Position numbers and translations under genes: made by a program
Notes under the pieces: generated by a model
What the model saw: the letters and a program-made list of their open reading frames with translations, nothing else
What the model was told of the DNA's origin: nothing
Database searches by the model: none
Origin: Salinivirgaceae bacterium
GTDB taxonomy: Bacteria; Bacteroidota; Bacteroidia; Bacteroidales; SZUA-534
DNA length: 36,504 nt
Assembly (NCBI GenBank): GCA_017557785.1
Contig: JAFYYA010000025.1
Span: forward strand, 1 to 36,504
Direction: 5' to 3'
Part shown: positions 6,682 to 36,503 of the stretch, piece by piece
Numbering within the stretch: the first letter of the stretch is position 1
How the letters are laid out: every line of letters starts with the position of its first letter

Positions 6682-9600
6682 ATGAGAAAATCCTTACTGA
6701 TTTTGGCATCGCTGTTTGTCGTGGGTAGCGCAGGCACCGCATTGGCACAGAGCGATTATCTATTGAGCGCTACGCCTATTGGCGACGGCCCAATTGAATT
6801 TAAACTTTCGGCATGCGACCAAACGCAAACACGCCCGTTGGTTATTAAAAACAACACCGACGAACCTATTAGTGGCATTATCGCTTCACAGAATGCCAAA
6901 ATTGAATTAGGCAACAAGGTTGCAGAAATGCCCTATTTAAACCTTGCCTTTGCAGAGAATTACGTTTATGCAATGAATTTAATGAACAATGCGATTATAA
7001 AACTCAATGCCAGCACATGGGAAGAAGAGAAAAGTATTAAACCCAATGAGTCTGTATACAGCATTGCTTACGACGGCAAAACACTATGGGCTTCAACCGA
7101 GAGTGGCAAAATTGTTGCTTACGATGCCAATCTGAATCCAACCGGCGCCAGTTTTGAAACTGGATACGATGGTCAGTTGATTGTATATTCTGGCACTGAA
7201 TTGCTGGCTATTGTATTCGATGAAGCCAATAATGAAGTTCGCGTTATAGCCATCGACACCAAAGGCCAGAAAACTGCTGATTACGGCACTCTGCCACAAG
7301 ATGGTGTTGGCGAGATGTGCACTTTCGACCCCAAAACACAAACACTTTGGTTCGTAGGTAGTGAAAACTTATACGCCTATAACCTTTCACATGGCAAGTT
7401 TGTAAACTCTGCCAGATTACCAATGAAGTTGTCTACTAATATGAATATTGTGGCTGGCTTCGACAACAACGGCAATGTCTATGTGCTTTCGGTAAATTTT
7501 TCGACCATGGATATGAGTTTTTATGCCGACAGCAAGATTTGCCTGTTTAGCGCTGGCTTCACTGCTTCGCACACATACATCGACCTGCAACCAGGCGAAC
7601 AAACCACCATTAACATCACTGCCGACGCATCACATGGTTCAAGCAGTACTCAAATTGAAGCCTACAACCCGGATGAAGACATTACTTATTTCAAACGCAC
7701 ACTCATCTCCAATCTTGACGTTGAAGCAGAATATGTAACAAGCCACACCACTTTTACAACATTTAAAGATTTCTCATGTACTGACACCGTATGGTTCAAA
7801 AACACCGGTTGCAAACAGATTATTATGAACTACGAACCCATATTGACATCGGGCACAGTTTTCACTAAAAAAGGAATTGTGATACCAGGCGCTGGTACGG
7901 GTGTACTTTATAATAATGATTCCATTGGCTGCATAGTTAGTTTCAATCCCACTTCAGTTGGTGAGTTTACTGATATACTCAAGGTACGTGCCAACGGCAC
8001 AGCCTTTGAAGTTGAACTTACAGGCACTTCCAAAGCCTTGAACTACACAATTGCCGACAACAACCCAAGCGCAACAATCACCAACTGCGGACCACTTACC
8101 GTGACTGATCAAATCACTAACGGCAACAACGTGCCAATGATTATTTCAAAAGAGACACATACCATTTTTACCATACACGCAAGTTATTGGGCGTCAGAAA
8201 TGTCTTGGAAATTATACAATGCCGATGGTAGTGTTGTTAAAGAAAGTAAAACATATTCAAGAAATACTGTATATACAGAATCATTTGTGCTTCCGGAAGG
8301 CTCATACACCCTATATATGTATGACAGTTATGGAGATGGTTGGGATGATGGCACTGGATATATTGACATTACAGGAAATGTGAATTTGTCTGGAGCAACA
8401 GTTACAGGAAGCCAAGCACAGGTATCATTTACTATAAATCCATGGTCTACAACCATTGCAGCCAACTCAAGCATTACAGGGTTCGATATTACGCCTGACA
8501 AACTCGACCCATCAGGCACAACCAATCTATATGTGTTTATTGAAGGCTTTGAAGAATCGCTCGAAGCCATAACACTCACCACCACAGGCAGCGGACAACC
8601 CGAACTGGCCGTTGCAGATGCAATCAACTTAGGTGATCTTTATCCAGACCAGACAAACAGCGTTGTGATACCTGTTACCAATAGCGGTTGCGCACCGCTT
8701 ACTGTTACCGCTCTTCAGCTTACTGGCGGTGAAAATAACAATATGATGTTTTGGGATTCTGAAAACGAAATACTGAGCAGCAATCTCTCTTTCGACAAAG
8801 TAATAGAACCAAATCAGACGGTTGAATTCACTCTCGCTGCTCGCCCCTACGGTGCTATTAACACCGAAGTAACTGATGTTATGAATGTTGTAACAACTGC
8901 CGGAACCGCCCAAATTCAATTGAAATCCGTCAACATTGGCTTACCGGTAGCCGAACTGTTATACGGTCAGTATGATAGTGAGATTAAAGACACTATACCG
9001 TGCAGCCATAGTGGTGCTGTAACAATAAAAAACAGCATTAAGAACTCTGGTACAGGCACTCTTAAAGTCAGCGAGCCGATGGAAATCCGCTATCAAGCCG
9101 GCACTACAGGAACTTGCTATTGCTACCTTTATGATGCTGATGGGCATTCTATTGGTAACACCTATTATTGTTCGTCTTTTGACATAAACAGATTTTATAC
9201 GTCAATTGAAGGCGATTACAGAATCAAAATTTCCAACTACAGATGTGACGGTACAATAAGTGTTATCAGCAATGGCAAAACACTGCTAACAATAAATCTC
9301 GCCGATGATAATGACGGCAATTACTATTTCACTCTGAACGCCGCCGACATTGCAACTCACAGCATTGCCGCAGGCGCGTCGAAAGAGCTACAGATGAGCG
9401 TTTACCCCGATCCAACATCAGTTACCAGTGATCAGACATTTTACTATTATCTTTTAACCAACGATGCCAACAACACAGAACTTACAATGTATGGTAAGGT
9501 CAGAGTTGTGCGTGCACCAAGCCTTGTGTTCCCTGAGACAATCGATTTTGGCGAAGTTACCCAAGGTCTATATGAATCAGCCTATTTGAGATATGAGAAC

Positions 9601-11880
9601 ATTGGCTGTGGTGATATCAGCGGATATAAAAATGTTTGGATTGTTGAAACAGGAACTCCGTTTGAGTATTACCCCGAGGCTGGTGGTGATTTATGGTTTG
9701 AACCAACAGGCGAACCTGGTGACTACACCGCCACCCTCAAGGTCGCAACCTACTACTATGTTCTGAGCGAAGAAGTTAAAGACACCTTCGAGATCACACT
9801 CAAAGGCAAGTGTCTGGCTGCACCGGCTTTAGTGTTCGATGGCGAAACCATAAACGTAACAGCCGAACCTGGCGCCGAGACCGTTACTGCCACCGCAACT
9901 ATTGGAAACAACGGACAAGGCACACTGATTCTCACTGATGCCACCAAAGCATTTTTGTATGGCAACGCAGGTACAGGCTCGAATGCCAACAAAATATATT
10001 GGAGTTTGGATCGGAAAACCGAAACAGGCAGTTGGACAACAGTTAAATCGGTTAGTTCGGATACTTATACCGCAGCCGGGCAATCCATCTATGTGAATAA
10101 TATATCATTGCCTGCTGGAGAATACCGATTGGTCATGGACTGCAGTGATTATTATGTTTATGGTTGGAACGGCGGTTACCTTGCTATAGAAACCGATGAC
10201 GGAATCCAACTGCTCAATGAGACACACGTGGCATCCACATCAAATAGGACAACCGTAAAATTCAATGTTACCGAGCGTCCGGAAATAACAGTTGCTGCCG
10301 GCGCCCAGACTAACATCGACATTGTTATCCCTATCAAAGGGCTTAGTTCAGGTAGTTATACGTTCTATCGCGAGTATAACACCAACGATGCTGCAAACGT
10401 TAAGATTCAAGTAAACGTTACTATTAATGATTCTTACGCTTATGATTTAAATAAGACGAAAGCCGTGTTTGAACCGGTTCACATCGGAGCAACAAGTTAC
10501 GCTTCAGTCACCTTGCGCAACCGTGGAACAGTGCCACTTGGCATCTCCGGCTATTCATACAAAGAATCTAGTCCAAAATTCCAAATTTACGATGTAATAG
10601 GCAGCGAAGCTCCTGGAGACTCTATCACCGTGAAACTTAAATTCACTGGCGATGAAGCAAAACTCTACCGCGACACACTGTACATTGCACACGGCACTGA
10701 GAAGCCTGATACCATCGCACTTGAAGCCACAGCAACCTTAACGCGCGTTATTGCAGTGAGCCCGGTTGAGCCAAACGGATTCTACCGCGTAGGCGACACC
10801 ATCAACATCAATGTGGTGTTCGATATGCCGATTTTGCTCAACGGCGGTGCCAACGACACAATGCTGATGCTGTTGAACACTGGCAAATTTGCAAAACTCT
10901 ACTACGATGAGAACAGCACCGATAATTACGCTCTCACCTTCCGCTACGGAGTTGAGAAAAACGACAACGTGGCCGCTCTCGATTATAAAGAAGACACTAT
11001 CTACCGCAACGGTCGCTATCTGTTGGAGCTCAACGACCCAACTTCAAGCATCAATTCAATTGTTCTGCCAAAGGTTGGTACATTTGCCAGCGCATACGCG
11101 ATAGCTCTTGACAACAAGGCTCCAGTGTTGACCGACACGGCCTTCAATCTGAACATTGCCGATATGCAACTCGAAGTGAAAGTAAAATTCAACGAGCCTG
11201 TCAGCGGCTTCAACGAAAAGAGCTTCCGTTTCGAAGGCGGTGCATCGCTCAAATCGTTCAACACCAAAGACAACCAGACTTATTCAGCTGTAATCGGGTT
11301 GGAGAGCTGCAAGGATATTGATGTGAGCATCAACGCCACTATCGCCGACCGAGCCGGCAACACCAAAAAAGTGAACGAATCGAAGAAAATACCGGCATTC
11401 CACGTCTATACACCAAGCGTTGTGGCTCCAACCTGCACCGAAGAAGGCTGCACTTTGCTTGTCTGCAGCGTATGCAAGCACGAAGAGAAAACGAATGTTG
11501 TTGCCGCCACTGGTCACGTGCCTGGCGAACCGACAATCGAAGTTAAGGTTGCCGCAACTGAGACCGCAGCCGGCAAGTGCGACACTGTGGTTTACTGCAC
11601 CGTATGCCACGCTGAGTTAAGCCGCACTGAAGGTGTTATTCCGCAACTGCAGACTGCAATTGCCGAAAACGAAGCCGCAGTTGCCATCTACGCCATTGGC
11701 CAGACCGTTATTGTTGAAGTTGCCGAGCCTAACGGCGACGAAATCATCGTGGTTGACGTGAACGGCCGCGTGGTTGCCAAAGCACAAGCCAACAGCACTC
11801 GCACCGAGATTACACTGCATGCAGCAGGAATCTACATGGTCAGCGTTGGCCATACAACAGAAAAGGTTGTGCTGCAATAA
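6682..11880 (+). CDS. Giant secreted multi-domain protein with ASH-type repeats and T9SS sorting domain, 1732 aa
   Basis: A Sec signal peptide (cut near residue 23, ALAQ) is followed by a beta-propeller-like section (about residues 60-300, with SIAYDGKTLWASTESGKIVA and FDPKTQTLWFVGSENLYAY). Next come several ASH/choice-of-anchor-D type beta-sandwiches marked by the recurring N-x-GC motif (NTGCKQI, TNCGPLTV, NSGCAPLTV, NIGCGDIS). Inserted among them are three related modules; the first carries DSYGDGWDDG near residue 548 and the third YGWNGGY near 1160. Near residues 1584-1655 is a Cys-rich repeat with C-x2-C pairs and TGHVPGEP. The last ~65 residues (VVDVNGRVVAKAQ, then GIYMVSVG) fit a divergent T9SS type A sorting domain without the usual YPNP start. 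It is probably anchored at the cell surface or released. Function is unknown. It is transcribed alone, with a terminator right after. Confidence 0.88.
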   Translation: MRKSLLILASLFVVGSAGTALAQSDYLLSATPIGDGPIEFKLSACDQTQTRPLVIKNNTDEPISGIIASQNAKIELGNKVAEMPYLNLAFAENYVYAMNLMNNAIIKLNASTWEEEKSIKPNESVYSIAYDGKTLWASTESGKIVAYDANLNPTGASFETGYDGQLIVYSGTELLAIVFDEANNEVRVIAIDTKGQKTADYGTLPQDGVGEMCTFDPKTQTLWFVGSENLYAYNLSHGKFVNSARLPMKLSTNMNIVAGFDNNGNVYVLSVNFSTMDMSFYADSKICLFSAGFTASHTYIDLQPGEQTTINITADASHGSSSTQIEAYNPDEDITYFKRTLISNLDVEAEYVTSHTTFTTFKDFSCTDTVWFKNTGCKQIIMNYEPILTSGTVFTKKGIVIPGAGTGVLYNNDSIGCIVSFNPTSVGEFTDILKVRANGTAFEVELTGTSKALNYTIADNNPSATITNCGPLTVTDQITNGNNVPMIISKETHTIFTIHASYWASEMSWKLYNADGSVVKESKTYSRNTVYTESFVLPEGSYTLYMYDSYGDGWDDGTGYIDITGNVNLSGATVTGSQAQVSFTINPWSTTIAANSSITGFDITPDKLDPSGTTNLYVFIEGFEESLEAITLTTTGSGQPELAVADAINLGDLYPDQTNSVVIPVTNSGCAPLTVTALQLTGGENNNMMFWDSENEILSSNLSFDKVIEPNQTVEFTLAARPYGAINTEVTDVMNVVTTAGTAQIQLKSVNIGLPVAELLYGQYDSEIKDTIPCSHSGAVTIKNSIKNSGTGTLKVSEPMEIRYQAGTTGTCYCYLYDADGHSIGNTYYCSSFDINRFYTSIEGDYRIKISNYRCDGTISVISNGKTLLTINLADDNDGNYYFTLNAADIATHSIAAGASKELQMSVYPDPTSVTSDQTFYYYLLTNDANNTELTMYGKVRVVRAPSLVFPETIDFGEVTQGLYESAYLRYENIGCGDISGYKNVWIVETGTPFEYYPEAGGDLWFEPTGEPGDYTATLKVATYYYVLSEEVKDTFEITLKGKCLAAPALVFDGETINVTAEPGAETVTATATIGNNGQGTLILTDATKAFLYGNAGTGSNANKIYWSLDRKTETGSWTTVKSVSSDTYTAAGQSIYVNNISLPAGEYRLVMDCSDYYVYGWNGGYLAIETDDGIQLLNETHVASTSNRTTVKFNVTERPEITVAAGAQTNIDIVIPIKGLSSGSYTFYREYNTNDAANVKIQVNVTINDSYAYDLNKTKAVFEPVHIGATSYASVTLRNRGTVPLGISGYSYKESSPKFQIYDVIGSEAPGDSITVKLKFTGDEAKLYRDTLYIAHGTEKPDTIALEATATLTRVIAVSPVEPNGFYRVGDTININVVFDMPILLNGGANDTMLMLLNTGKFAKLYYDENSTDNYALTFRYGVEKNDNVAALDYKEDTIYRNGRYLLELNDPTSSINSIVLPKVGTFASAYAIALDNKAPVLTDTAFNLNIADMQLEVKVKFNEPVSGFNEKSFRFEGGASLKSFNTKDNQTYSAVIGLESCKDIDVSINATIADRAGNTKKVNESKKIPAFHVYTPSVVAPTCTEEGCTLLVCSVCKHEEKTNVVAATGHVPGEPTIEVKVAATETAAGKCDTVVYCTVCHAELSRTEGVIPQLQTAIAENEAAVAIYAIGQTVIVEVAEPNGDEIIVVDVNGRVVAKAQANSTRTEITLHAAGIYMVSVGHTTEKVVLQ

Positions 11881-25185: not shown

Positions 25186-26097
25186 ATGAAAACACTAAAA
25201 GCATTTCTTTCCTGCGCCTTAATGGCGACTACGATTATCGCCTGCGATAAAAACAACGACAATACAGACGACTCACATCTGAAAGACCTTCCTGAAAATA
25301 TTCAGGGTGACTTTTCCTCCCGCTACCCTGATGCGAAAGTCGACGGCTTCTGTTTGTTTGGTGATTCGTTAAATATGGCCGAAATCGACTTTTATGACAA
25401 AGACGGGCTTTCGAACATGGCATACTATAAAGATGGCAAGTGGCTGTCGAACAGAAAAAACATAACTCTTGAAGCGGATTCAGATTTGATACCGGGAAAA
25501 GTCTATGACACATTTGCAAAACTTGGAATACCGAAAGCGCAAATTATTGAGCACCTTTTCGAAGATGCAAAAAGTGGCATTGAGCAGAAGCAATACCAAT
25601 TTGCTTTCGTAGGTACATACAACTTCGGCACGGGTGACATAAATAACTACGCCAACAATATAATTATAGCCGAAGACGGCACTCTGCTATCGCACAACGA
25701 CTATCAGCTTTGTGACCCGGTAAAGATTGTTCCCTATGTTCACACTGATTTTATTCAATTTGCGCAAAGCAAATATCCCGAAGCTAAAATCCTTGGCTCG
25801 ACTTACGACGGAAGGAATGTGGTTGTGTTCATCAGCCACGAGAAAATTGTTAAGCACGTGGTCATTTATAAAGATGACAACAACAAATTATCATGGGTGA
25901 AAACATGGTATCCGCTCGACATCAACACCAATTTGCCTGAATCGGCGATTGAAGACAAAAATGATTATCTGTCGCAGCACCCCGATGCAAAACTGACTGC
26001 AATACGGCATGAAGAAGATGCAACGGGTGCGTATTACTGCTTTACTTTCTACCTGACAATTGACAGCGGGGAAATAATCAGTTCGAAAATCGAATAA
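25186..26097 (+). CDS. PepSY-like (DUF2874-type) lipoprotein, 303 aa
   Basis: A lipoprotein: the signal peptide ends in IIAC (Cys near residue 20) and is followed by DKNNDNTDD, an acid/Asn-rich stretch compatible with surface export. The mature part holds about three diverged PepSY-like units, each with an F-x5-YPDAK-type helix end followed by beta strands: FSSRYPDAKVDGF, FAQSKYPEAKILGSTYDG and YLSQHPDAKLTAIRHEED. The Bacteroidota PepSY-like family is usually shorter, with one or two units. Such proteins are common as exported proteins of unknown role; the family name 'beta-lactamase-inhibitor-like' refers to fold only. It is a single gene between the tRNA and a terminator. Confidence 0.75.
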   Translation: MKTLKAFLSCALMATTIIACDKNNDNTDDSHLKDLPENIQGDFSSRYPDAKVDGFCLFGDSLNMAEIDFYDKDGLSNMAYYKDGKWLSNRKNITLEADSDLIPGKVYDTFAKLGIPKAQIIEHLFEDAKSGIEQKQYQFAFVGTYNFGTGDINNYANNIIIAEDGTLLSHNDYQLCDPVKIVPYVHTDFIQFAQSKYPEAKILGSTYDGRNVVVFISHEKIVKHVVIYKDDNNKLSWVKTWYPLDINTNLPESAIEDKNDYLSQHPDAKLTAIRHEEDATGAYYCFTFYLTIDSGEIISSKIE

Positions 26098-26175: not shown

Positions 26176-29100
26176 CTATCTCTTCATCAGTTCTTCAACC
26201 ATACGCTTCAACTCTTCCACTTCTTTCTGCAGTTCGTCTTTCTCTGCTTTCAACTCTTTCACAGCTTCAATCAGCACCGGTGTAAGGTTTTCGTATTTAA
26301 CTGCCTTGAAGCCTTCGTTGTCAGTAACAACCAGTTCCGGCAAAACTTCTTCAACTTCCTGTGCAATGACGCCAATCTGCTTTTCATCGCTGAAGCCATA
26401 GCTCATGTTTTTCACATCCTTGCCTTTGGCGGCAGCCATCTCTGCCTTGTTCTTCCAGTAGAATGTCACGCCACGAAGTTTCAGCACCTTGTCCAAAGCG
26501 CCGTCAAGTGACTCAACATCTTTTTTCAGGCGCATATCAGATGAGCTGCAAGAGCCAGTATAGGTAATGCTGCCATTGACGGTCATGTTGCCGTTCTTTG
26601 AGACAATCAAAGCATCGCTTTTTGAATCTTCAGACTGGCCGTTGCCAATCACAAACAGATTGTCACTTTCCCACCACGAATCCGGATTATTCTGGTCGCG
26701 GCTGGTATTGAATGAGCCTATTGCCACTTCGCCAAAAGAATATGCAGTTGAATAATTACCCAAAGCAATAGAATTGCGTCCGATGGCAGTTGCATTATAA
26801 CCCAGCGCAACAGAGTTTTCGCCGCTGGCGGTTGTGCTGCATCCAAGAGATGTTGAATGCTGACCGCTGGTTGCATTGTAGCCCAAAGCAACCGATGCTT
26901 CGCCGCTGGCGGTTGTTCCGCAACCTAAAGCCATAGAATTGCCACCAGTAGCCGTTGCATGATAACCCATAGCGGTAGAGTAATCGCCATTGACATTAGA
27001 GAATGCACCCAAAGCCAGAGAATTCTTTTTGCTGGCCAATGCTTTATAACCCAGAGCGGCGGCACCTACTCCTGCGGACGTCGCCCAATCGCCAATTGCA
27101 AAAGCACTGTCAGCAGATGCTGTGGCACCAACTCCAAAAGCATAGCTGGCGACGCCTTTCGCCTGTGCGAATTTTCCGAAAGTAAATGCGTCTTCGCCAA
27201 CATTTTCTGCGTCTTTAGAACCGCCGACCATAAAGGTATTCTTGTCGGGATACCAGTTCATGCGGCTTTCGGTGTTAACGGTTATGGCATCTTTGCGCAA
27301 GTCGATATTGAAATCATCAACATAGAATTTAGTACTGTCTGGATTGACAGTCATATATGCTGATTCTTTGCCTTTGGTTGCATCGCGACCGGTAATGAGG
27401 AAACCCCTACGCTTGATTTTCGAAGCATCATTGTCAAATTTTATTTGCGTACCGTCGGTAGCAACTTTCATGTAATCGGTGGTTTCTCCATCCTTTGTTG
27501 CTGTGCGGCCTGTTACCACGAATCCGCTGCGGCGGGCTTTATCGCTGCTATCAAGTTCGTCATCAACAAACACTTTGGTTCCCTCGTCGTTCACAGTGAA
27601 ATAGTTGGTTGGTTGGCCGCCCTTGGTGGCATCGCGGCCGGTGATGAGGAAGCCGCTGCGTTTGATTTTGTCACCGTCATTGTCATCGACAAACACTTTG
27701 GTTCCCTCGTCGTTCACAGTGAAATAGTTGGTTGGCTGGCCGCCCTTGGTGGCATCGCGGCCGGTGATGAGGAAGCCGCGGCGTTTGATTTTGTCACCGT
27801 CATTGTCATCGACAAACACCTGCGTGCCACTACCGTCAACCGAAAGGAAATCGGTGCTTTCGCCTTCCTTGGTGGCGTCGCGGCCAGTAATAAGGAAGCC
27901 GCGGCGGCGTATCTTGCTGCCGTCAGCATTGGGGTCGACAAACACTTTGGTTCCCTCGTCGTTCACAGTGAAATAGTTGGTTGGCTGGCCGCCCTTGGTG
28001 GCATCGCGGCCGGTGATGATGAAGCCGCGGCGTTTGATTTTATCGCCGCCATCTTTGTCATCAACAAACACTTGTGTGCCATCACCGTCAATCGCAAGCA
28101 AATTGGCTGTTTCACCTTCTTTGGTTGCTGTACGGCCTGTTACCCGGAATCCACTGCGACGCGCCTTGGCATCATCGTCATCAACAAACACTTGAGTTCC
28201 CTTGCCATCGACTGCCAAGTAATCAACGCTTTCTCCATCTTTAGTAGCATCACGGCCTGTGATAAGGAAACCGCTGCGTTTATGGACGCCGATAGCTTTG
28301 TCGCCATTATCTTCTCCATCGACAAAGACTTTTGTACCTTCGTCGTTTACAGTGAAATAGTTGTTCTGGTTGCCCTCTTTTGTGGCAACACGGCCAGTGA
28401 TGAGGAAGCCGCTACGGGCAGCCTTGGTTGCGTCATCATCAACAAACACTTTCGTACCCTCGTCACCTTTGATTGAGAGGAAGTCGGCGTTCTCGCCCTT
28501 GGTTGCCACACGGCCTGTTACCAAGAAACCGCTACGTGCAGCCTTCGAATCGTCGTTGTCGACAAACACCTTTGTACCCTCATCGCCTTTGATTGAGAGG
28601 AAGTCGTTATTGGCACCGTCTTTGGTTGCCACGCGGCCTGTTACCAGGAAACCGCTGCGGGCTGCCTTCGAGTCATCGTTGTCAACGTAAACCTGTGTAC
28701 CGTCGCCGTTTACGGCAAAGTAGTCTTTCGGCTGGCCGTCTTTGGTCGCAACGCGGCCAGTTACCAAGAATCCGCTGCGGGCTGCCTTGCTGTTGTCGTC
28801 GTCAACATAGACGCGCACACCGTCGGGATATACGGCAAACACCACGTTCCCGTCTTTGTCTTTCACTTCAAAGAGTGCGTCATCAGAACCGCTAGGGTTG
28901 ACTGTGCCAACTGCCTGCGCACTGCTGCCGCTACGAGCTGCGTAGAGAGCCACTGGTACGGCTTGAATCTTTGTCGCACCAAAATCAGCGTAGTTGGTGC
29001 CGCCTTTCACATCAATTGAGATGTGCAGCCATGCCGACTTGGTCCAATCGACATTTTTAAGTTTTGTGCCATCCATCGGTGTACCGCGACCAACAGTCAC

Positions 29101-29328
29101 ACTCAGCACGCCAAACTCGTTGGTTGTTGCGGTTTGAACTTCCTTATACATGACGTTGGTTCCAGCACTGTCGGCTATTGTAAGAATCAAGCCAACTTTT
29201 TGCGTTTTAACTAAGTCGCCATTCGGGTTTCGTATCACTGCCTGGTACGAGAATCCGTCAGTTTGTGCCACTGCCGACATTATGGCCACAGTGGCAGCAA
29301 TTGTCAAAAAAATACTCTTTAGTCTCAT
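26176..29328 (-). CDS. Repeat-rich fibre-like surface protein with YadA-head-type repeats and S74 intramolecular chaperone, 1050 aa
   Basis: A signal peptide (to about residue 21, AVAQ) is followed by an N-terminal domain common in Bacteroidota fibre proteins (TDGFSYQAVIRNPNGDLVK to about residue 140). Next, at about 165-655, come twelve tandem units of about 41 aa, each built on RxGF(L/V)(V/I)TGRxATK, a short linker, and a DGTQVFVDDxD strand. Residues about 705-875 hold head repeats of the trimeric-autotransporter type (SYAFGVGATASADSAFAIGD, NSMALGCGTTASGEASVALG). Residues about 929-1024 match the peptidase S74/intramolecular chaperone domain (SSDMRLKKDVESLDGALDKV, then KQIGVIAQEVEEVLPELV). 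A heptad coiled coil ends the protein. In phage tail spikes this domain trimerises the fibre and cuts itself off. No T9SS sorting domain is present. Monocistronic. Confidence 0.88.
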   Translation of the reverse strand: MRLKSIFLTIAATVAIMSAVAQTDGFSYQAVIRNPNGDLVKTQKVGLILTIADSAGTNVMYKEVQTATTNEFGVLSVTVGRGTPMDGTKLKNVDWTKSAWLHISIDVKGGTNYADFGATKIQAVPVALYAARSGSSAQAVGTVNPSGSDDALFEVKDKDGNVVFAVYPDGVRVYVDDDNSKAARSGFLVTGRVATKDGQPKDYFAVNGDGTQVYVDNDDSKAARSGFLVTGRVATKDGANNDFLSIKGDEGTKVFVDNDDSKAARSGFLVTGRVATKGENADFLSIKGDEGTKVFVDDDATKAARSGFLITGRVATKEGNQNNYFTVNDEGTKVFVDGEDNGDKAIGVHKRSGFLITGRDATKDGESVDYLAVDGKGTQVFVDDDDAKARRSGFRVTGRTATKEGETANLLAIDGDGTQVFVDDKDGGDKIKRRGFIITGRDATKGGQPTNYFTVNDEGTKVFVDPNADGSKIRRRGFLITGRDATKEGESTDFLSVDGSGTQVFVDDNDGDKIKRRGFLITGRDATKGGQPTNYFTVNDEGTKVFVDDNDGDKIKRSGFLITGRDATKGGQPTNYFTVNDEGTKVFVDDELDSSDKARRSGFVVTGRTATKDGETTDYMKVATDGTQIKFDNDASKIKRRGFLITGRDATKGKESAYMTVNPDSTKFYVDDFNIDLRKDAITVNTESRMNWYPDKNTFMVGGSKDAENVGEDAFTFGKFAQAKGVASYAFGVGATASADSAFAIGDWATSAGVGAAALGYKALASKKNSLALGAFSNVNGDYSTAMGYHATATGGNSMALGCGTTASGEASVALGYNATSGQHSTSLGCSTTASGENSVALGYNATAIGRNSIALGNYSTAYSFGEVAIGSFNTSRDQNNPDSWWESDNLFVIGNGQSEDSKSDALIVSKNGNMTVNGSITYTGSCSSSDMRLKKDVESLDGALDKVLKLRGVTFYWKNKAEMAAAKGKDVKNMSYGFSDEKQIGVIAQEVEEVLPELVVTDNEGFKAVKYENLTPVLIEAVKELKAEKDELQKEVEELKRMVEELMKR
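27350..28850 (-). repeat. Array of twelve ~120-bp coding repeats
   Basis: The array encodes the twelve RxGFxxTGRxATK units. Units at 27571-27693 and 27694-27816 are both 123 bp and differ at about two positions. A third near-copy begins at 27943. Units towards the N-terminus (28400-28850) form another subfamily (SIKGDEGTKVF). The pattern points to recent unit duplication or gene conversion. Confidence 0.85.
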
Positions 29329-29504: not shown

Positions 29505-29533
29505 TTTGACTTAACAAATAAACTCTACATTTG
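29505..29533 (+). promoter_or_regulatory. Promoter of the CoA-transferase gene
   Basis: TTTG at 29505-29508 and TACATTTG at 29526-29533 form a -33/-7 pair with 17-nt spacing. The upstream in-frame TTG (29531) falls inside the -7 box, so translation must begin later, at the ATG at 29567. Confidence 0.65.
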
Positions 29534-29566
29534 CGCACAAAATATTTGAATAATAATTCACGTAAA

Positions 29567-30877
29567 ATGTATAATAATACAAAAATTAATTTCGTTTCAG
29601 CCGCCGAAGCGGTTAAGGTCGTCAAATCGGGTGACCATGTTCATTTGAGTGCCATTGGCAATGCACCTCAGGTGTTGATTAAGGCATTGTGCGACCGCGG
29701 ACGAGCCGGTGAGTTGAAAAACGTTCATATCCATCACTTTCACACCGAAGGCGAAGCGCCCTACTCTGCTCCGGAGTTTGAAGGCGTGTTCCAGCACGAT
29801 GGTTTCTTTGTTGGCGCCAACACCCGCAAGAACGTTCAGGCCGGGTATGCCGACTATATTCCCGTATTCCTTGGCGAAGCCGCACGGCTCTACCGCGAAG
29901 GCTATCTGCCCTGCAACGTGGCAATGATTCAGGTGTGCCCGCCCGACGAGCACGGATATGTTTCGCTCGGCGCATCGGTCGATGCCTGCCTGGCAGCAAT
30001 GGAAGTGGCCGAATACGTGATTGCCGTTGTCAATAAAAACGCACCGCGCGCCTTCGGTCAGGCAATGATTCACATGAGCCGCATAAATATTTTTGTTCAG
30101 GACGACTCGCCGCTCATTGAGAAATTCTACGAAGAGCCAAGCGAGACCGACCTTGCCATTGGCCGCCACTGCGCCGAGCTGATTGACGACGGCGCCTGCC
30201 TGCAGCTGGGCATTGGCTCGCTGCCGAACGCCACTCTGGCCTGCCTTGGCAACCACAAAAACCTCGGCATACACACCGAAATGTTTGCCGACGGCGTGCT
30301 GCGACTGGTTGAGAAGGGCGTAATCACTGGCGCAAACAAGGCTCTCGACCGCGGCAAGATTGTTTCGACATTCCTGCTCGGAACAAACAACGTTTACAAG
30401 TTTGTGGACAACAACCCGCAGGTGCTGATGCAAGACGTGGCCTACACCAACGACCCGTTCATCATTGCGCAGCAGCCAAAAATGACGGCAATCAACTCAG
30501 CCATCGAAATTGACCTGACCGGCCAGGTCTGCGCCGACTCAATCGGCACAAAGCAGTTCTCGGGCGCTGGTGGACAAATCGATTTCATCTACGGTGCTTC
30601 GCGGTCAAAAGGCGGCAAGGCCATCATTGCCATGCCATCGATGACCAAAAAGGGCGTGAGCAAGATTGTGCCAACTCTGACTCCAGGGGCAAGCGTAGTC
30701 ACCACACGCTTCCACATCCACTGGTTTGTGACCGAGTTTGGCGCCGTTAACCTCTATGGCCGCACCATGCAGGAGCGTGCAAAACTGATTACCAGTGTTG
30801 CCCACCCGAGCGTGCAGGAAGATTTGGACCGTGCGGCATTTGAGCGCTTCGGCCCGCACTTCCACTTTGGTAAGTGA
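29567..30877 (+). CDS. Acetyl-CoA hydrolase/transferase family protein (4-hydroxybutyrate or butyryl-CoA:acetate CoA-transferase type)
   Basis: A cytoplasmic CoA-transferase of 436 aa. The N-terminal half (AAEAVKVVKSGDHVHLSAIGNAP, HHFHTEGEAPY) and the C-terminal half carry the usual two-domain fold. The presumed catalytic Glu lies in GIHTEMFADGV, the position that forms the glutamyl-CoA thioester in 4-hydroxybutyrate and butyryl-CoA:acetate CoA-transferases. GIGSLPNATLACLG and SGAGGQIDFIYGASRSKGGK are family glycine loops, and FGAVNLYGRTMQERAKLI closes the protein. The likely role is moving CoA between acetate and a four-carbon or similar acid in fermentation. Substrate cannot be fixed from sequence, and no butyrate or succinate pathway genes are adjacent. 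Confidence 0.88.
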   Translation: MYNNTKINFVSAAEAVKVVKSGDHVHLSAIGNAPQVLIKALCDRGRAGELKNVHIHHFHTEGEAPYSAPEFEGVFQHDGFFVGANTRKNVQAGYADYIPVFLGEAARLYREGYLPCNVAMIQVCPPDEHGYVSLGASVDACLAAMEVAEYVIAVVNKNAPRAFGQAMIHMSRINIFVQDDSPLIEKFYEEPSETDLAIGRHCAELIDDGACLQLGIGSLPNATLACLGNHKNLGIHTEMFADGVLRLVEKGVITGANKALDRGKIVSTFLLGTNNVYKFVDNNPQVLMQDVAYTNDPFIIAQQPKMTAINSAIEIDLTGQVCADSIGTKQFSGAGGQIDFIYGASRSKGGKAIIAMPSMTKKGVSKIVPTLTPGASVVTTRFHIHWFVTEFGAVNLYGRTMQERAKLITSVAHPSVQEDLDRAAFERFGPHFHFGK

Positions 30878-30969: not shown

Positions 30970-31659
30970 TTAGATTTTTATGTAAATGGTTTCCCATTCC
31001 GACCATTCGCCATCGTTGTCGCATACGCGGAACTCAATGGTGGCCAAGCCCTTCTCTTTGAAAATGTAATTAATCTTGCTGAGTGGCGTGACAACCGAGT
31101 AAACAATATCCGACGGACTGGTGATTTTGTACTCGTACTGCTCAATTCCGCCACCTTTGTTTGCGTCGGTATCATAAGATTGACTCAAGTCGATTTCCGC
31201 TTCAGTGTCGCTCAAATTCTTAATCAGTTTGGCGCTACCTTTAGCAACAGGCTTAGTGTTATAGAAGGCCAACAGCTGGAAAGACAATTCCGAACTTTTA
31301 CCGTAGATGTCTGTCGCCGTAATGGTTCCATTAACAGTACCAATATTTGCGACTGTGATTTTCAGCACGCTGTCGGCCAATTCGCAATCAAAGACACCAG
31401 TCGTGTCGGCCAAGGCCAAAACGGGTGCCTTGACATGAACATCGTGGCAGCGGAATCCGTAACTCTGCAAGTGGCTGATTTTAACCGAATCTGTCAAGAC
31501 GGTTAGGTGAAGGTCGCTGACATTGGCCGTCCACTCAAACAGCGGCGCGTCATCAATTTCATAGAAATAATCTTCGCGATGGCAGCTGCTTGCGGCAACC
31601 ATAAAAGCAAGACCACACAGCAGCGATATTCTTCTTATTTTAAAATTATTAGCATTCAT
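30970..31659 (-). CDS. Lipoprotein with PKD-like C-terminal domain, 229 aa
   Basis: The signal peptide ends in the lipobox AASSC (Cys near residue 26), followed by HREDYFYEIDD, an acidic stretch that could favour surface export. Two beta-rich halves are visible. The first (about 40-125) contains DSVKISHLQSYGF and ITATDIYGKSSELSFQLL. The second (about 130-229) has PKD/cadherin-like features: TKPVAKGSAKL, the Asp-rich IDLSQSYDTDANKGG, and a final FRVCDNDGEWSEWETIYIKI. The start is 2 nt from the end of the TraO-like gene, so the two are co-translated. I do not recognise a named family. It may be the lipid-anchored partner of the small outer-membrane protein and the giant secreted protein upstream. 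Confidence 0.75.
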   Translation of the reverse strand: MNANNFKIRRISLLCGLAFMVAASSCHREDYFYEIDDAPLFEWTANVSDLHLTVLTDSVKISHLQSYGFRCHDVHVKAPVLALADTTGVFDCELADSVLKITVANIGTVNGTITATDIYGKSSELSFQLLAFYNTKPVAKGSAKLIKNLSDTEAEIDLSQSYDTDANKGGGIEQYEYKITSPSDIVYSVVTPLSKINYIFKEKGLATIEFRVCDNDGEWSEWETIYIKI

Positions 31660-31661
31660 GT

Positions 31662-32219
31662 TTAATTGAATTTTCGATTGTTTTTAGGTTTAAAATCCAA
31701 CAGCCAGCTGCCGCCCAAGGTCAGCTGCGGAACAAATTTGTCGATTTTTCCAAAACCGGCGCGTTCCTTGGCTTCGAACCAGACAGTCCATTGATAATTA
31801 ATAAAATACTTGCATTTGCAGCCAAGCTCGCCAAGGCACATGAACGATGTTTTTTCGACATCTTCGACTTTGCTTTTCATGTGGTCGAGACCGATTTGGA
31901 CACCCGCAACACCATCAACATAAAACTTGTCGTTACAATTGCAGAAATTATAACACAGCTGATTGTCAATAGCATAACGCATAAAATCTGTGAATCCCTT
32001 CGATCCGCCGCTAATGTTCAGGCGCGAATCGAGACTGACTTTCTCGTTAAACCAATAAGAGTCGCCGATTGTGCCACCATAAGAGTGGTCCGACATGAAG
32101 AATCCCGCATTAAGCGTAATTGCACCTTTAATGTGATTGCGCAATGGGTGCGCGCTCAATCCGCTGACACTAACCCCAAGCAGAATGGTCAGCAATGGTT
32201 TTAATATTCCTTTAATCAT
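31662..32219 (-). CDS. Small outer-membrane-type protein resembling conjugal transfer TraO, 185 aa
   Basis: A signal peptide (to about residue 23, LSAHP) precedes a beta-rich chain that looks like a small outer-membrane barrel: KGAITLNAGFFMSDHSYGG, CYNFCNCNDKFYVDGVAGV, ELGCKCKYFINYQWTVWFEA and LTLGGSWLLDF. The order (ligand-free N-terminal strands, a tyrosine-rich middle, an 'ARER'-like KERAGFG, and a last strand) resembles TraO of Bacteroides conjugative transposons, but no other transfer gene is present. It carries several cysteines in C-x-C pairs, unusual for a barrel. It lies 12 nt after the giant T9SS gene and 2 nt before the lipoprotein gene. The TraO relation is a judgement by eye. Confidence 0.6.
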   Translation of the reverse strand: MIKGILKPLLTILLGVSVSGLSAHPLRNHIKGAITLNAGFFMSDHSYGGTIGDSYWFNEKVSLDSRLNISGGSKGFTDFMRYAIDNQLCYNFCNCNDKFYVDGVAGVQIGLDHMKSKVEDVEKTSFMCLGELGCKCKYFINYQWTVWFEAKERAGFGKIDKFVPQLTLGGSWLLDFKPKNNRKFN

Positions 32220-32231
32220 AAGTCCGATCCG

Positions 32232-35200
32232 TTAATACTTCACAATCTTCTCGTAATGAGCATTACCGCTGCCGTCGACAACAATAACTGTGTACGCTCC
32301 TTCGGGGAAGGCCGATATGTCTATCTTGGCAGCTGACGATACTTCCGCGTCGAACACAACCCCGCCTGTGCTGCCGACGATTGTCACATGCGATTCGCCT
32401 TCGGATTCAACCATTAGGAAGTCGGTTGCCGGGTTAGGATAAACGCTGACAGTGCTTCCGCCGTTGTCAGCCACATCGGTGAACGCACTGCTGACGGTGA
32501 TGTGGTTGGTCCTGATGGTTTCAACAACACAGCCTTCACGGCTGACTAACCGCAGACGAACGCTGAACACACCATCGTTGTTATAGTAGTGCCACGGTTC
32601 TTCTTCGAACGAACCATCGGCACCATCGCCAAAATTCCATTCACACCGCACAAAGTTGGTTGAGTTGTTTGCAAAATGGATTGCTTCGCCAGCGCGTACA
32701 ACTATCTTGTCAGTCACAAAATCGGGGTTCATGTCGATAACATTCAACACCACGTTCTCTTTGGTCAAAAGATCGCCAGAGCTACTGTAGGACCGCAGTT
32801 CCACAGTGGTGCTTTCGGTTATGGTCATCATATAAAGCTCCGGACTTGCGGCAAGCTGATTGCCACTGGCATCGAACCATCTGTACAAGCCGCCTTCGAT
32901 GCCCGATGCCTGGATTCTTACAGTATCGCTCTTGCAATAAAGTTCCTTGAGATTGGCCAAGCTGACCACCGGCTGTTTGATTGTCAAATCGACAACATTG
33001 GTGCTCAGAACATCATCGCCATCGATAACCGCACGGTAGAACGACGCTGATACCGATAGCCCAACAGGCTGATAATTGGCTGCAGTGGCGCCTTGAATCG
33101 GTTCGAAAGCGCTGTCGCCTTCTTTCTTCCAATACCATTGATATTTTGGCGAACCATCAGTGTTGCCACCGCTTGCACTAACCACATTTTTCAGCGACGG
33201 CAACCGCTGACCGGCATAATAGAAATCGCTGGTGCGGCTTGCTGCGATGGAACCACTCTTGAGCGGCACATTAACCTGGAACTCGAACGCCAGTTTCTCC
33301 TGGTCACCACTGATGTCGTAGCGGCGGTAGGTGGTGTTGGTTCCTGGCAGCACGTCGATTGTGGCGGTTGTGTCGCTAATAGGCACAAACTCCCCGTTAT
33401 TGCTGGCCGAGCTCTTCTCCCAACGGTAACGGTAGGTGCCGTTGCCGCCTGTGGCGGCTGTTCCAGAGAGCGAAATCGAATCATTATCAATAGTATATGA
33501 TGTCTCGGCTGCGGTACCTGGAATCAAATCGGGCCAAACATCGAGCGATGCCACTTCCGTAGTGATGATTCTGGTGGGATAGAGCGAATCTGTCACCACG
33601 CAACGGTAATCGACGGCTTCGGTAACTGTGATGGCAAGAATCGGATTATCGTTGTCCAGAATGTTCTGCCATTCACCATTTGCGAATGTTTGCCACTGAT
33701 AGTCGTAGCTGCCACTTCCGTTTATCACTCTAACTTCAATGGGCGTAGTTTTGCCGTAAGACAGCTTCTCTTGGGCATATATCAGTGTGTCTATCTGCAT
33801 ATTAGCCGTCCAAGTGCATTGCAATTCAGCCGATTCTTTTTCTTGATGGTCACCGCTGATGACAACTTTATAGAGATAAGAGATTGCCGCATTGGTGTTG
33901 TTCTCGTGATTGTCGGTGTATGTAAACTGATTGCCACCGACTGCCGTCCAATCGGTTTCGGCATTTTTGCGATACCACTGATAGCTGTAAACGCCGTCGC
34001 CGCCCGATGCCGTAATTGTAAGACTCACATTGTCGCCGCCATAGACAACGCTGCTGCCCATAGGTTGGATTTTGCCGATTTTCAACGACGGACGATGGGT
34101 AACATTGGCCACTTCCGACACGCTGGTCTGATTGTCGCCCGACACCACCACCCTGTAGTATATCACTATTGGGGCATCGGTCTCATTATCACCGGTTTCG
34201 GCAAGCGCGTTGCTTCTTGCGCCACGAATATCAAGCCATTCGGTGTTGTCGTTGCTCACCTGCCACTGGTAGGTATAATTGCCGTTGCCACCCGACGGGT
34301 TGGCAGTAAGCGTTACGCTACCGCCGCTGTAGGTTGTTTGGCCACTACCGGTAATGCTGCCTGAGACCAATGCCGGACGCCAGGTTACTGAAACTGCTTC
34401 AGCATAAACAACTTGGTTGTCGCCCAAAACTTTAACGCGGAAATATTTAGTCTGATTTGACCCACTTACCTGGCAAGTGGCGTCTCTTGCACTGGAGATA
34501 TCGCTCCAATTGACATTGTCGAGACTGACTTCCCACAGGTACGAGCAATCACCATTGCCACCCGAAGTGTTTGCCGTGAGTTGAACGCTTCCACCGCTGT
34601 ATGTGGTGGTGGCGCCCTTGATGACAGCCGCCAAAGCCGGGCGGTATGTCACCGTAACCGACGATGTTGCTTCTGTATAGCCATCGCTGGATACCACCAC
34701 GCGATAGTATTTTATTAGATTGCTGGTTCCGGCATTTGTACTGCTTGCAGTAAATGATTGGTTTGTTGCTCCCGAAACATCAACCCAGTTTGAGCCTTTC
34801 TTCATTTGCCATTGGTAGGTGTATGTGCCATCGCCACCCGACGGGTTGGCCGTAAGCGTTACGCTGCCGCCGCTGTAGGTTGTCTGACTTCCACCCGTGA
34901 TGGTTCCTGCCATCAAAATCGGACGCCAGGTTACTGAAACCGCAGGCGATTCATCGGTCTGGCCATCACCGGATATTGCAACTTTATACATCACCGTCTG
35001 GTCTGTCCCGCTTACTGTGCAGGTCCGGTTGGTTGCACCGGCATTGCTCGTCCATGTGTTGCCACCATCGGTGCTCTGATACCACTGGTACGAATAGGTG
35101 CCTTCGCCGCCACCGCCTGACGCATGGGCAGTGAGTTCGACATTGTCGCCGCCAAAGGTGCTAATGTTGCCGCCAGTGATGGCTTCTGCCACCAATACCG

Positions 35201-36503
35201 TATGCCACGATACGGTCACCGGCACTGCGTAGAACTCCTGATTGTCGCTTGTTACTTTGACGCGGTATTTTTTTGTCAAATTCGAGCCTGACGAGTTTGT
35301 ATTAGTCTCGGAATAACTGTTGCTGTTGCCATTCACAAGAATCTTGCTCCATGCTGAGCCACTGTACACTTCCCATTGATAAGAGTAAGTACCATTGCCG
35401 CCTGTGGGATTGACAGAAAGCGTAATGGTGCCGCCACTGCGGGTGCTCTGGCCACCGCCAGAGATTTCGCCCACAGCCAAAGCCGGACGCCATTCAACAG
35501 TAACATAATCCGATTCCATTGTCTGACCGTCGCAAGTGACAGCAACTTTATAATATTTCATCTGTCCCGAACCTGACACATAGCATTTGTCGTCGCCTGC
35601 AATATTGCTCCAGACGGAACCGTCAACACTCTCCTTCCACTGGTATGTATAACTACCAACGCCGCCCGCCGGACTAACTGAAAGTTGGACACTGCCGCCA
35701 CTATAGGTGGTTACTCCGCCACCAGCGATGCTGCCCAAATTGAACGGCAAATTCCACGTTACCGAAACCACAGCCGATGTTGCTGTCTGGCTATCGCCAT
35801 CGGTTACGACAACTTTATACTGCTTTGTCTGATCGTATCCGCTATCTTCAAGCTCCAAGTCTGTTGCACCAACAACACTATTCCAAGTATTGCCGCTGTC
35901 GGTGCTCCGATACCATTGGTATGTATAAGTGCCGCTGCCTGTTCCGCCGGTTGCCACACCAATTTGAAGAGTTACGCTGCTGTTGCTGCCCACAACTTTA
36001 TTTCCGCCAGTGATTGTTCCGGCCACTACTGGTGAGCGCCAGGTTACCGAAACTGCCGATGCCGTTGCTTTCTGGTTGTCGGCATCGGTTACAATAACCT
36101 GATATTTTTTAGTTACGCCCGAGCCGCTGGCACTGTACGACATCGAGTTTGTGCCAACGTTGGTCCACGAGCTGCCGTTGTTGCTGCTCTCCTGCCACTG
36201 GTATGAATAACTGCTGCTATTACCACCCGATGCCGCGCCAACCGAAAGGCTCACGCTGTTGCCGCTGTATGTTGTTCCACCGCCACCGCTGATAGTACCA
36301 GCTACCAACTGCGGACGCCAAGTTACGGTAACTTCGCCCGAGTATTTTGTCTGACTGTCGCCAGTTACTTTTATACGGTATTTCTTTGATAGATTTGTAG
36401 TTCCTGTGTTTGTATTACTTACATCGCAAGTCAAACTAGTTTGTCCTGATATGTCGCTCCATTGCGAGCCATTATAAACCTGCCACAGATAGTTATATGA
36501 ACC
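32232..36503 (-). CDS. Giant Ig-like/PKD-repeat T9SS-secreted protein (5' end beyond window)
   Basis: The reading frame stays open to the right edge, so the N-terminus and signal peptide are missing; at least 1423 codons are visible. From the edge inward there are about 12-13 tandem beta-sandwich units of about 85-95 aa, each with TTYSGGSVTLTANPSGGxG, TYTYQW, a Trp-containing strand, KYYRVVVSGDxQT and VTWRPxLxAGTI. The last two or three have drifted. A PKD domain follows (FANNSTNFVRCEWNFGDG, then HYYNNDGVFSVRLRLV). The C-terminal ~80 residues are a typical T9SS type A sorting domain: VSVYPNPATDFLMVE, VTIVGSTGGVVFDA, FPEGAYTVIVVDGSG, YEKIVKY. It should be exported across the outer membrane and attached to the surface. 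The SprB-like architecture suggests an adhesin or gliding-type filament. It is first in a unit with the TraO-like protein and the lipoprotein. Confidence 0.88.
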   Translation of the reverse strand, partial: GSYNYLWQVYNGSQWSDISGQTSLTCDVSNTNTGTTNLSKKYRIKVTGDSQTKYSGEVTVTWRPQLVAGTISGGGGTTYSGNSVSLSVGAASGGNSSSYSYQWQESSNNGSSWTNVGTNSMSYSASGSGVTKKYQVIVTDADNQKATASAVSVTWRSPVVAGTITGGNKVVGSNSSVTLQIGVATGGTGSGTYTYQWYRSTDSGNTWNSVVGATDLELEDSGYDQTKQYKVVVTDGDSQTATSAVVSVTWNLPFNLGSIAGGGVTTYSGGSVQLSVSPAGGVGSYTYQWKESVDGSVWSNIAGDDKCYVSGSGQMKYYKVAVTCDGQTMESDYVTVEWRPALAVGEISGGGQSTRSGGTITLSVNPTGGNGTYSYQWEVYSGSAWSKILVNGNSNSYSETNTNSSGSNLTKKYRVKVTSDNQEFYAVPVTVSWHTVLVAEAITGGNISTFGGDNVELTAHASGGGGEGTYSYQWYQSTDGGNTWTSNAGATNRTCTVSGTDQTVMYKVAISGDGQTDESPAVSVTWRPILMAGTITGGSQTTYSGGSVTLTANPSGGDGTYTYQWQMKKGSNWVDVSGATNQSFTASSTNAGTSNLIKYYRVVVSSDGYTEATSSVTVTYRPALAAVIKGATTTYSGGSVQLTANTSGGNGDCSYLWEVSLDNVNWSDISSARDATCQVSGSNQTKYFRVKVLGDNQVVYAEAVSVTWRPALVSGSITGSGQTTYSGGSVTLTANPSGGNGNYTYQWQVSNDNTEWLDIRGARSNALAETGDNETDAPIVIYYRVVVSGDNQTSVSEVANVTHRPSLKIGKIQPMGSSVVYGGDNVSLTITASGGDGVYSYQWYRKNAETDWTAVGGNQFTYTDNHENNTNAAISYLYKVVISGDHQEKESAELQCTWTANMQIDTLIYAQEKLSYGKTTPIEVRVINGSGSYDYQWQTFANGEWQNILDNDNPILAITVTEAVDYRCVVTDSLYPTRIITTEVASLDVWPDLIPGTAAETSYTIDNDSISLSGTAATGGNGTYRYRWEKSSASNNGEFVPISDTTATIDVLPGTNTTYRRYDISGDQEKLAFEFQVNVPLKSGSIAASRTSDFYYAGQRLPSLKNVVSASGGNTDGSPKYQWYWKKEGDSAFEPIQGATAANYQPVGLSVSASFYRAVIDGDDVLSTNVVDLTIKQPVVSLANLKELYCKSDTVRIQASGIEGGLYRWFDASGNQLAASPELYMMTITESTTVELRSYSSSGDLLTKENVVLNVIDMNPDFVTDKIVVRAGEAIHFANNSTNFVRCEWNFGDGADGSFEEEPWHYYNNDGVFSVRLRLVSREGCVVETIRTNHITVSSAFTDVADNGGSTVSVYPNPATDFLMVESEGESHVTIVGSTGGVVFDAEVSSAAKIDISAFPEGAYTVIVVDGSGNAHYEKIVKY

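Follow-up and report, generated by a model that had tools for sequence, protein, structure and literature searches.

The 36,504-nucleotide stretch of Salinivirgaceae DNA that we analyzed (contig JAFYYA010000025.1, positions 1–36,504; hereafter the window) contains on its minus strand, at 26176–29328, an open reading frame (ORF) that begins with ATG and encodes a protein of 1050 amino acids. The gene stands alone, and its neighbors at 25186–26097 and 29531–30877 both lie on the plus strand. The protein reads as a long exported fiber with an N-terminal domain resembling that of the mosaic adhesive trimers (MATs). Its parts and their order can be read directly in the sequence, and the ORF, twelve repeats, YadA head, S74 domain and coiled-coil-like end that an initial annotation had placed in this order were all recovered:

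26176..29328, minus strand: the whole gene, 1050 amino acids.
29266..29328, minus strand: signal peptide, residues 1–21, with a predicted signal peptidase I cut between AVA and Q (by eye; Q22 is at least 90% conserved in protein sets A3 and A4).
28927..29265, minus strand: MAT-type N-terminal domain, residues 22–134, presumed to be the cell-proximal docking part (NF053851, 8.1e-12, below the curated cut-off).
28780..28881, minus strand: a likely degenerate stalk unit 0 (adapter), residues 150–183 (score of a 60-unit profile against shuffles).
27301..28779, minus strand: 12 stalk units of 40–46 amino acids, residues 184–676, of the form RSGFLVTGRxATK...YFxVxxxGTxVYVD (motif positions).
26644..27186, minus strand: YadA-type head repeats, approximately residues 715–895, presumed to form the distal tip after cleavage (PF05658; match to PDB 7o23).
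26542..26643, minus strand: linker to the presumed cleavage site, residues 896–929 (the gap between the 7o23 and PF13884 matches).
26329..26541, minus strand: S74 intramolecular chaperone/protease, residues 930–1000, with the codon of Ser930 at 26539–26541 (PF13884; SDxxxK).
26179..26328, minus strand: coiled-coil-like C terminus of the chaperone piece, residues 1001–1050 (heptad-like by eye; PHROG fiber matches reach residues 1034–1049).

The N-terminal domain connects the protein to a known class of fibers. When the whole protein was scanned against NCBIfam, NF053851 (mosaic adhesive trimer N-terminal domain, Bdello_MAT_N) matched residues 12–114 at 2.4e-10, and the same model matched all 13 N-terminal domains from the window's own genome (set A1) as well as 61 of the 62 proteins of set A3, the window protein included. 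Beyond these sets, NF053851 had matches below its curated cut-off in 39 of 148 genomes of the phylum and none in 14 control genomes, and the profile built from set A1 had matches in 35 of the 148. Because the NF053851 matches fall under the curated cut-off, we read the domain, of ~115 amino acids, as what appears to be a distant relative and not a member of the curated subfamily.

Because this domain appears to be a distant MAT N-terminal domain, fibers of comparable layout have already been described, from Bdellovibrio (PMC10769870). That paper reports that all 21 Bdellovibrio MATs carry a beta-rich domain of ~130 amino acids directly after the signal peptide, that 13 of the 21 end in an S74 domain with SDxxxK, that one of them, Bd3182, cleaves itself at the catalytic Ser, that MATs are found at the surface of the cell, and that S74, TNF/C1q-like and C-type lectin tips have been crystallized. 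With the S74 group of these MATs (Bd3182) the window protein shares a signal peptide, a long fiber, a C-terminal S74 domain with SDxxxK, the same order of parts, and many paralogs per genome, and its N-terminal domain is a distant sequence match to their beta-rich domain of ~130 amino acids. It differs from the Bdellovibrio MATs in its NF053851 score, its 41-amino-acid stalk units, the YadA-type head that precedes its S74 domain, the collagen-like stalks of its paralogs, and its host, a Bacteroidota genome with a type IX secretion system (T9SS). The initial annotation had likened the protein to a phage tailspike placed behind a Sec signal, which fits the sequence evidence; the MAT-type family of its N-terminal domain had gone unrecognized.

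We consider it quite probable that the window protein is a secreted, modular, trimeric adhesive fiber of MAT type, in a Bacteroidota version; it would be a Bacteroidota variant, with a stalk repeat that has no name, of a kind of fiber described in 2024. Several points weigh against this reading. The N-terminal domain alone scores 45.2 bits with NF053851 (8.1e-12), short of the curated cut-off of 60 bits, and none of the matches in the 39 phylum genomes exceeds that cut-off. Our comparison with MATs was made through this family model and published descriptions, and we infer trimerization, cleavage, surface location and binding from sequence. Moreover, the docking role of the MAT N-terminal domain is unproven in Bdellovibrio itself, and PMC10769870 gives its partner there as unknown.

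At its C-terminal end the protein has two well-supported domains. Both YadA_head (PF05658, 8.6e-27, seven stretches at E ≤ 1) and Peptidase_S74 (PF13884, 6.9e-17, residues 930–1000) exceeded their Pfam cut-offs, and the SDxxxK motif of the S74 family is present as SDMRLK at residues 930–935; because SSDMRLKKD begins at residue 929, the Ser of this motif is Ser930. Cleavage before it would leave a product comprising residues 22–929, which we computed at 908 amino acids and 95.9 kDa, close to the roughly 905 residues first estimated, and would release a C-terminal piece of 121 amino acids and 13.8 kDa. In a sequence search of solved chains, PDB 7o23 (BpaC) matched residues 750–895 at 1.4e-20, and the other matches included further YadA-type heads, 6f45 (a phage long tail fiber distal subunit) and 7dc3 (myelin regulatory factor, which PMC10769870 names as an S74 protein).

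The S74 region also matches many PHROG tail fiber families (best 3.9e-38), as might be expected of a domesticated or resident fiber of a phage or contractile system, and the N-terminal domain occurs on two IMG/VR contigs (L051:6001-6402 and L052:6001-6375), which may be host DNA beside proviruses. The protein likewise shares with the S74 tailspikes and fibers of phages (K1F endosialidase, T5; named in PMC10769870) a C-terminal S74 domain with its Ser-Asp site and a coiled-coil-like end. It differs from them, however, in being chromosomal, in having a signal peptide, and in having, where a virion-attachment domain would be, an N-terminal domain of MAT type. In addition, the genome holds ~13 genes with this domain, and Pfam scans of 20 other window proteins (a subset of the window's ORFs) turned up no family of phage type. 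We therefore regard a phage or contractile-system fiber as extremely improbable. A phage origin of the N-terminal domain or of the repeat was considered separately and set aside when a tblastn search of 50,697 phage records found neither. By eye, the C terminus encoded at L052 is WSSTE/lectin-like.

The stalk is built of a repeat for which searches of Pfam, PHROGs and the PDB gave no credible match. Twelve exact TGRxATK motifs lie 40–46 amino acids apart between residues 190 and 646, and by eye the three segments GFLVTGR, YFAVN and TQVYVD of a unit each look like a short beta strand. No PDB chain matched the 41-amino-acid unit, none of the PHROG families that matched in the stalk region (best 1e-5) had a single stretch that passed, and a tblastn search with the repeat (residues 184–680) found nothing in the phage records. 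Two Pfam families, DUF6843 (38 bits) and PadR (31.5 bits), exceeded their cut-offs over the repeats through summed weak pieces, with three stretches at E ≤ 1 and none at 1e-4 for the former and no stretch at E ≤ 1 for the latter; because these are sums of weak pieces, and because no other of the 62 A3 proteins matches either family, we took both as artifacts.

The initial annotation, which could not assign the repeat, had proposed an HMM (hidden Markov model) search of the unit, and the profile that we built recovered relatives across the order. The repeat is thus in no named family that we found, but it is not unique: it recurs in the stalks of other MAT-like proteins. Copies of lower identity occur in metagenome-assembled genomes (MAGs) labeled Bacteroidales or Bacteroidetes (e.g. 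at L096, L102, L108 and L130), and a profile made from the beginning of the stalk (A5) has matches in 31 of the order's 198 genomes, spread over 20 family codes. The MAT-type domain is present in every one of these 31 genomes, and many of the A5 matches span just the first stalk unit or two. In the window protein, a profile of 60 units found 13, including a degenerate first one, DALFEVKDKDGNVVFAVYPDGVRVYVD (residues ~150–183), that seems to precede the twelve and scored 24.9 bits, where 2000 shuffles reached at most 18.6. The counterpart stretch in four distant relatives scored 8.9–14.2 bits, no better than the best shuffles, and we judge the kinship of the degenerate unit to the other stalk units no more than likely. 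As a separate observation, one stretch of ~18 kb (G230:C40:77731-95932) has eight stalk-repeat matches in eight open frames of different length on one strand, likely a tandem cluster of MAT-like genes.

How such a protein would leave the cell and stay attached is less obvious. By eye, its N terminus has the n-region, hydrophobic core and AxA-before-Q cleavage site of a signal peptide, directly before the N-terminal domain. The conserved Gln at +1 agrees with the Q-rule described for Bacteroidetes proteins cut by signal peptidase I, and the paper on that rule states that this Gln does not act as a generic sorting signal (PMC5837995). The initial annotation had found no T9SS sorting domain, membrane anchor barrel or lipobox, an absence borne out by our Pfam and NCBIfam scans and, for the lipobox, by eye. 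Neither Pfam (including PF18962) nor NCBIfam returned a T9SS sorting domain for the window protein at E ≤ 1, and none of the 62 A3 proteins had one (Pfam E ≤ 1e-4; NCBIfam E ≤ 0.01). We take TIGR04183 and TIGR04131 to be the NCBIfam models for this domain, and PF18962 did detect the window neighbor at 32232–36434. No lipobox was visible in the window signal peptide, and a simple pattern found none in 79 related proteins. The absence of a classical anchor in these scans would suit an extracellular matrix or released structural fiber as opposed to a cell-bound adhesin, an alternative that we consider improbable given that MATs with a related domain are surface-displayed in Bdellovibrio (PMC10769870).

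The YadA head repeats raise the alternative of a trimeric autotransporter of type Vc whose membrane barrel has been lost or replaced. These repeats are shared with YadA, BpaC and Ata, and models of Ata (over residues 592–872), BimA and YadA matched the protein, all far under their cut-offs. Unlike type Vc proteins, however, the window protein has no C-terminal barrel, and an S74 domain occupies the barrel's place; YadA_anchor was absent from it at E ≤ 1. A search of 60 genomes that included its own, where none was found, gave no YadA_anchor match over the cut-off, with weak matches under it in G003 and G050 and a positive E. coli control. The polarity is also reversed, the conserved, cell-side end being N-terminal and the C terminus variable, and a modified type Vc protein seems to us very improbable.

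A more serious alternative is that the fiber is a T9SS cargo without a recognizable sorting domain, exported through the SprA translocon by some other signal and tied to the gliding or T9SS apparatus. Like T9SS cargo adhesins such as SprB, it is a long repetitive protein of T9SS bacteria, and unlike them it has no C-terminal sorting domain, a lack that extends to all 62 A3 proteins. The domain and SprA do co-occur: all 35 domain-bearing phylum genomes (of 148) have SprA, and none of the 31 genomes lacking SprA has the domain (p 9e-5). Among the 198 genomes of the order the domain is present in 129 of 187 with SprA compared with 1 of 11 without (p 1e-4), and by genus in 107 of 145 compared with 0 of 6 (p 5e-4). 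SusC-type receptors match in 10 of the 11 SprA-less order genomes at E ≤ 0.001, a loose threshold at which E. coli matches too, and below 1e-200 in 7 of the 11. A sorting domain is also present on the window neighbor at 32232–36434, with a weaker match, under the cut-off, at 6682–11880.

This association is nonetheless confounded by lineage, as 19 of the 20 SprA-less phylum genomes listed belong to one family code, and FimA-type fimbriae, a second control that shows the opposite pattern, characterize 20 order genomes in which SprA and the MAT-type domain are both uncommon. Within the FimA-bearing genomes the domain is present in 4 of 13 with SprA and 0 of 7 without (p 0.25), and outside them in 125 of 174 with SprA and 1 of 4 without (p 0.08), both comparisons having small numbers and low power. 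G292, the lone order genome in which the domain occurs without SprA, is 82% complete, and SprA is present in a congener. To our knowledge, Bdellovibrio displays MATs without a T9SS. Because the association is not significant once stratified by FimA, we keep T9SS dependence as a possibility and consider a T9SS-cargo origin of the fiber rather unlikely. FimA-type fimbriae and the MAT-type domain themselves tend to exclude each other, the domain being present in 4 of 20 FimA-bearing order genomes and 126 of 178 without FimA (p 1.4e-5, lineage uncorrected).

Two other window genes have T9SS sorting-domain matches. The neighbor at 32232–36434 (minus strand) encodes a 1400-amino-acid protein with an SprB repeat and the T9SS sorting domain and is followed by genes for two small proteins without a Pfam match (31662–32219 and 30970–31659), and it could possibly be a surface protein with partners. 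At 6682–11880 (plus strand) lies a gene for a protein of 1732 amino acids with HYDIN/ASH-type Ig-like domains and the weak sorting-domain match.

The window protein is one member of a mosaic family. Its genome (153 contigs, 3.0 Mb) has 14 matches to the N-terminal domain profile. Two of these lie at contig ends (C138 and C97) that overlap exactly over 124 bases; because the pair is probably one gene, the matches correspond to about 13 genes. At the start of contigs C49 (reverse) and C90 (L017 and L020), the S74 proteins cut there share 95 of their first 97 residues. All gene counts in this genome are approximate because repeats probably break the assembly. An S74-type SDxxxK near the C terminus was found in 8 of the 18 own-genome ORFs examined, the window's included, and the remaining ones either are cut by contig ends or have other tips. 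Two own-genome relatives (L021:1-5298 and L023:741-2837) appear by eye to have C-terminal regions of parallel-beta or FISUMP type, not S74. The stalks in this genome consist of 41-amino-acid units, collagen-like GXY runs, or both, so that the paralogs bear other stalks and tips on what by sequence is the same N-terminal domain.

Across the relatives, this common domain is combined with collagen-like, 41-amino-acid, FLGxxAG or YadA stalks and with S74, FISUMP, Lcl_C or C1q tips. Pfam (E ≤ 1e-4) found collagen in 18 of the 62 A3 proteins, S74 in 17, YadA_head in 8, FISUMP in 4, Lcl_C in 4 and C1q in 2, classes that may overlap. The FISUMP and Lcl_C tips are presumably lectin-like, and with the C1q tips they parallel two kinds of Bdellovibrio tip, TNF/C1q-like and C-type-lectin. 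In a quick tree built from 70 N-terminal domains, at least six changes are needed to account for the S74 tip, and L096 (with S74, units and YadA) and L109 (with neither S74 nor units by pattern) are well-supported sisters; the tree has few columns, 12 of its 67 inner branches are well supported, and S74 was scored by a simple pattern that misses some cases, such as L106, scored as lacking S74 despite its SDxxxK.

If the fiber is of MAT type, its assembly might proceed as follows. The chain would be exported by Sec and trimmed by signal peptidase I, and the C-terminal S74 domain and coiled coil, as in established families, would bring three chains into register and then cut themselves off before Ser930, for which Bd3182 offers a precedent. 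The N-terminal domain of ~115 amino acids may dock the fiber on the cell, and the 12 or 13 stalk units would push the tip outwards, leaving at the far end the YadA-like head as the putative binding part, conceivably in adhesion.

Related proteins occurred in all 10 congeners tested, and a search of named records confirmed at least 526 of 585 candidate stretches, of which 79 loci were kept. Among the matches listed, a Salinivirgaceae MAG from the omasum of a yak supplies the two nearest, and others belong to Salinivirgaceae MAGs from the stomach chambers of sheep, yak and buffalo; many Bacteroidota have more distant relatives, and one record (L098) is labeled Candidatus Gracilibacteria. These neighbors suggest that the window belongs to this lineage of Bacteroidales. 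All but one of the 34 other positive phylum genomes hold 1–3 matches to the N-terminal domain profile. Among the papers listed by our searches of open-licence PMC, none concerned MATs in Bacteroidota, and the word start 'bacteroid' is absent from the main text of PMC10769870, the supplementary tables 3–4 of which (MATs of other bacteria) may list Bacteroidota. We tentatively propose, giving it somewhat less than an even chance, that Bacteroidota carry a widespread, unnamed fiber system that is defined by a MAT-type domain at the N terminus and depends on no T9SS sorting domain, lipobox or autotransporter barrel. In it, trimeric stalks and tips of several kinds (YadA heads trimmed by S74, and lectin-like, C1q-like and collagen-like parts) would be interchangeable on one docking and export route, with ~12 genes per genome in a rumen lineage.

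MAT fibers have been described as the prey-recognition kit of the predatory Bdellovibrio bacteriovorus (PMC10769870). If it is true that this kit, with a distant form of its docking domain, spreads through Bacteroidota, it would be a general bacterial surface-display system. The 41-amino-acid unit would offer a new stalk module for structural work, and the family bears on how MAT-type fibers cross and hold the outer membrane, since a search for the anchor or export partner is made tractable by the many genomes that have few such genes. A MAT-type repertoire could also explain how gut and rumen Bacteroidota grip particular glycans, cells and plant fibers.

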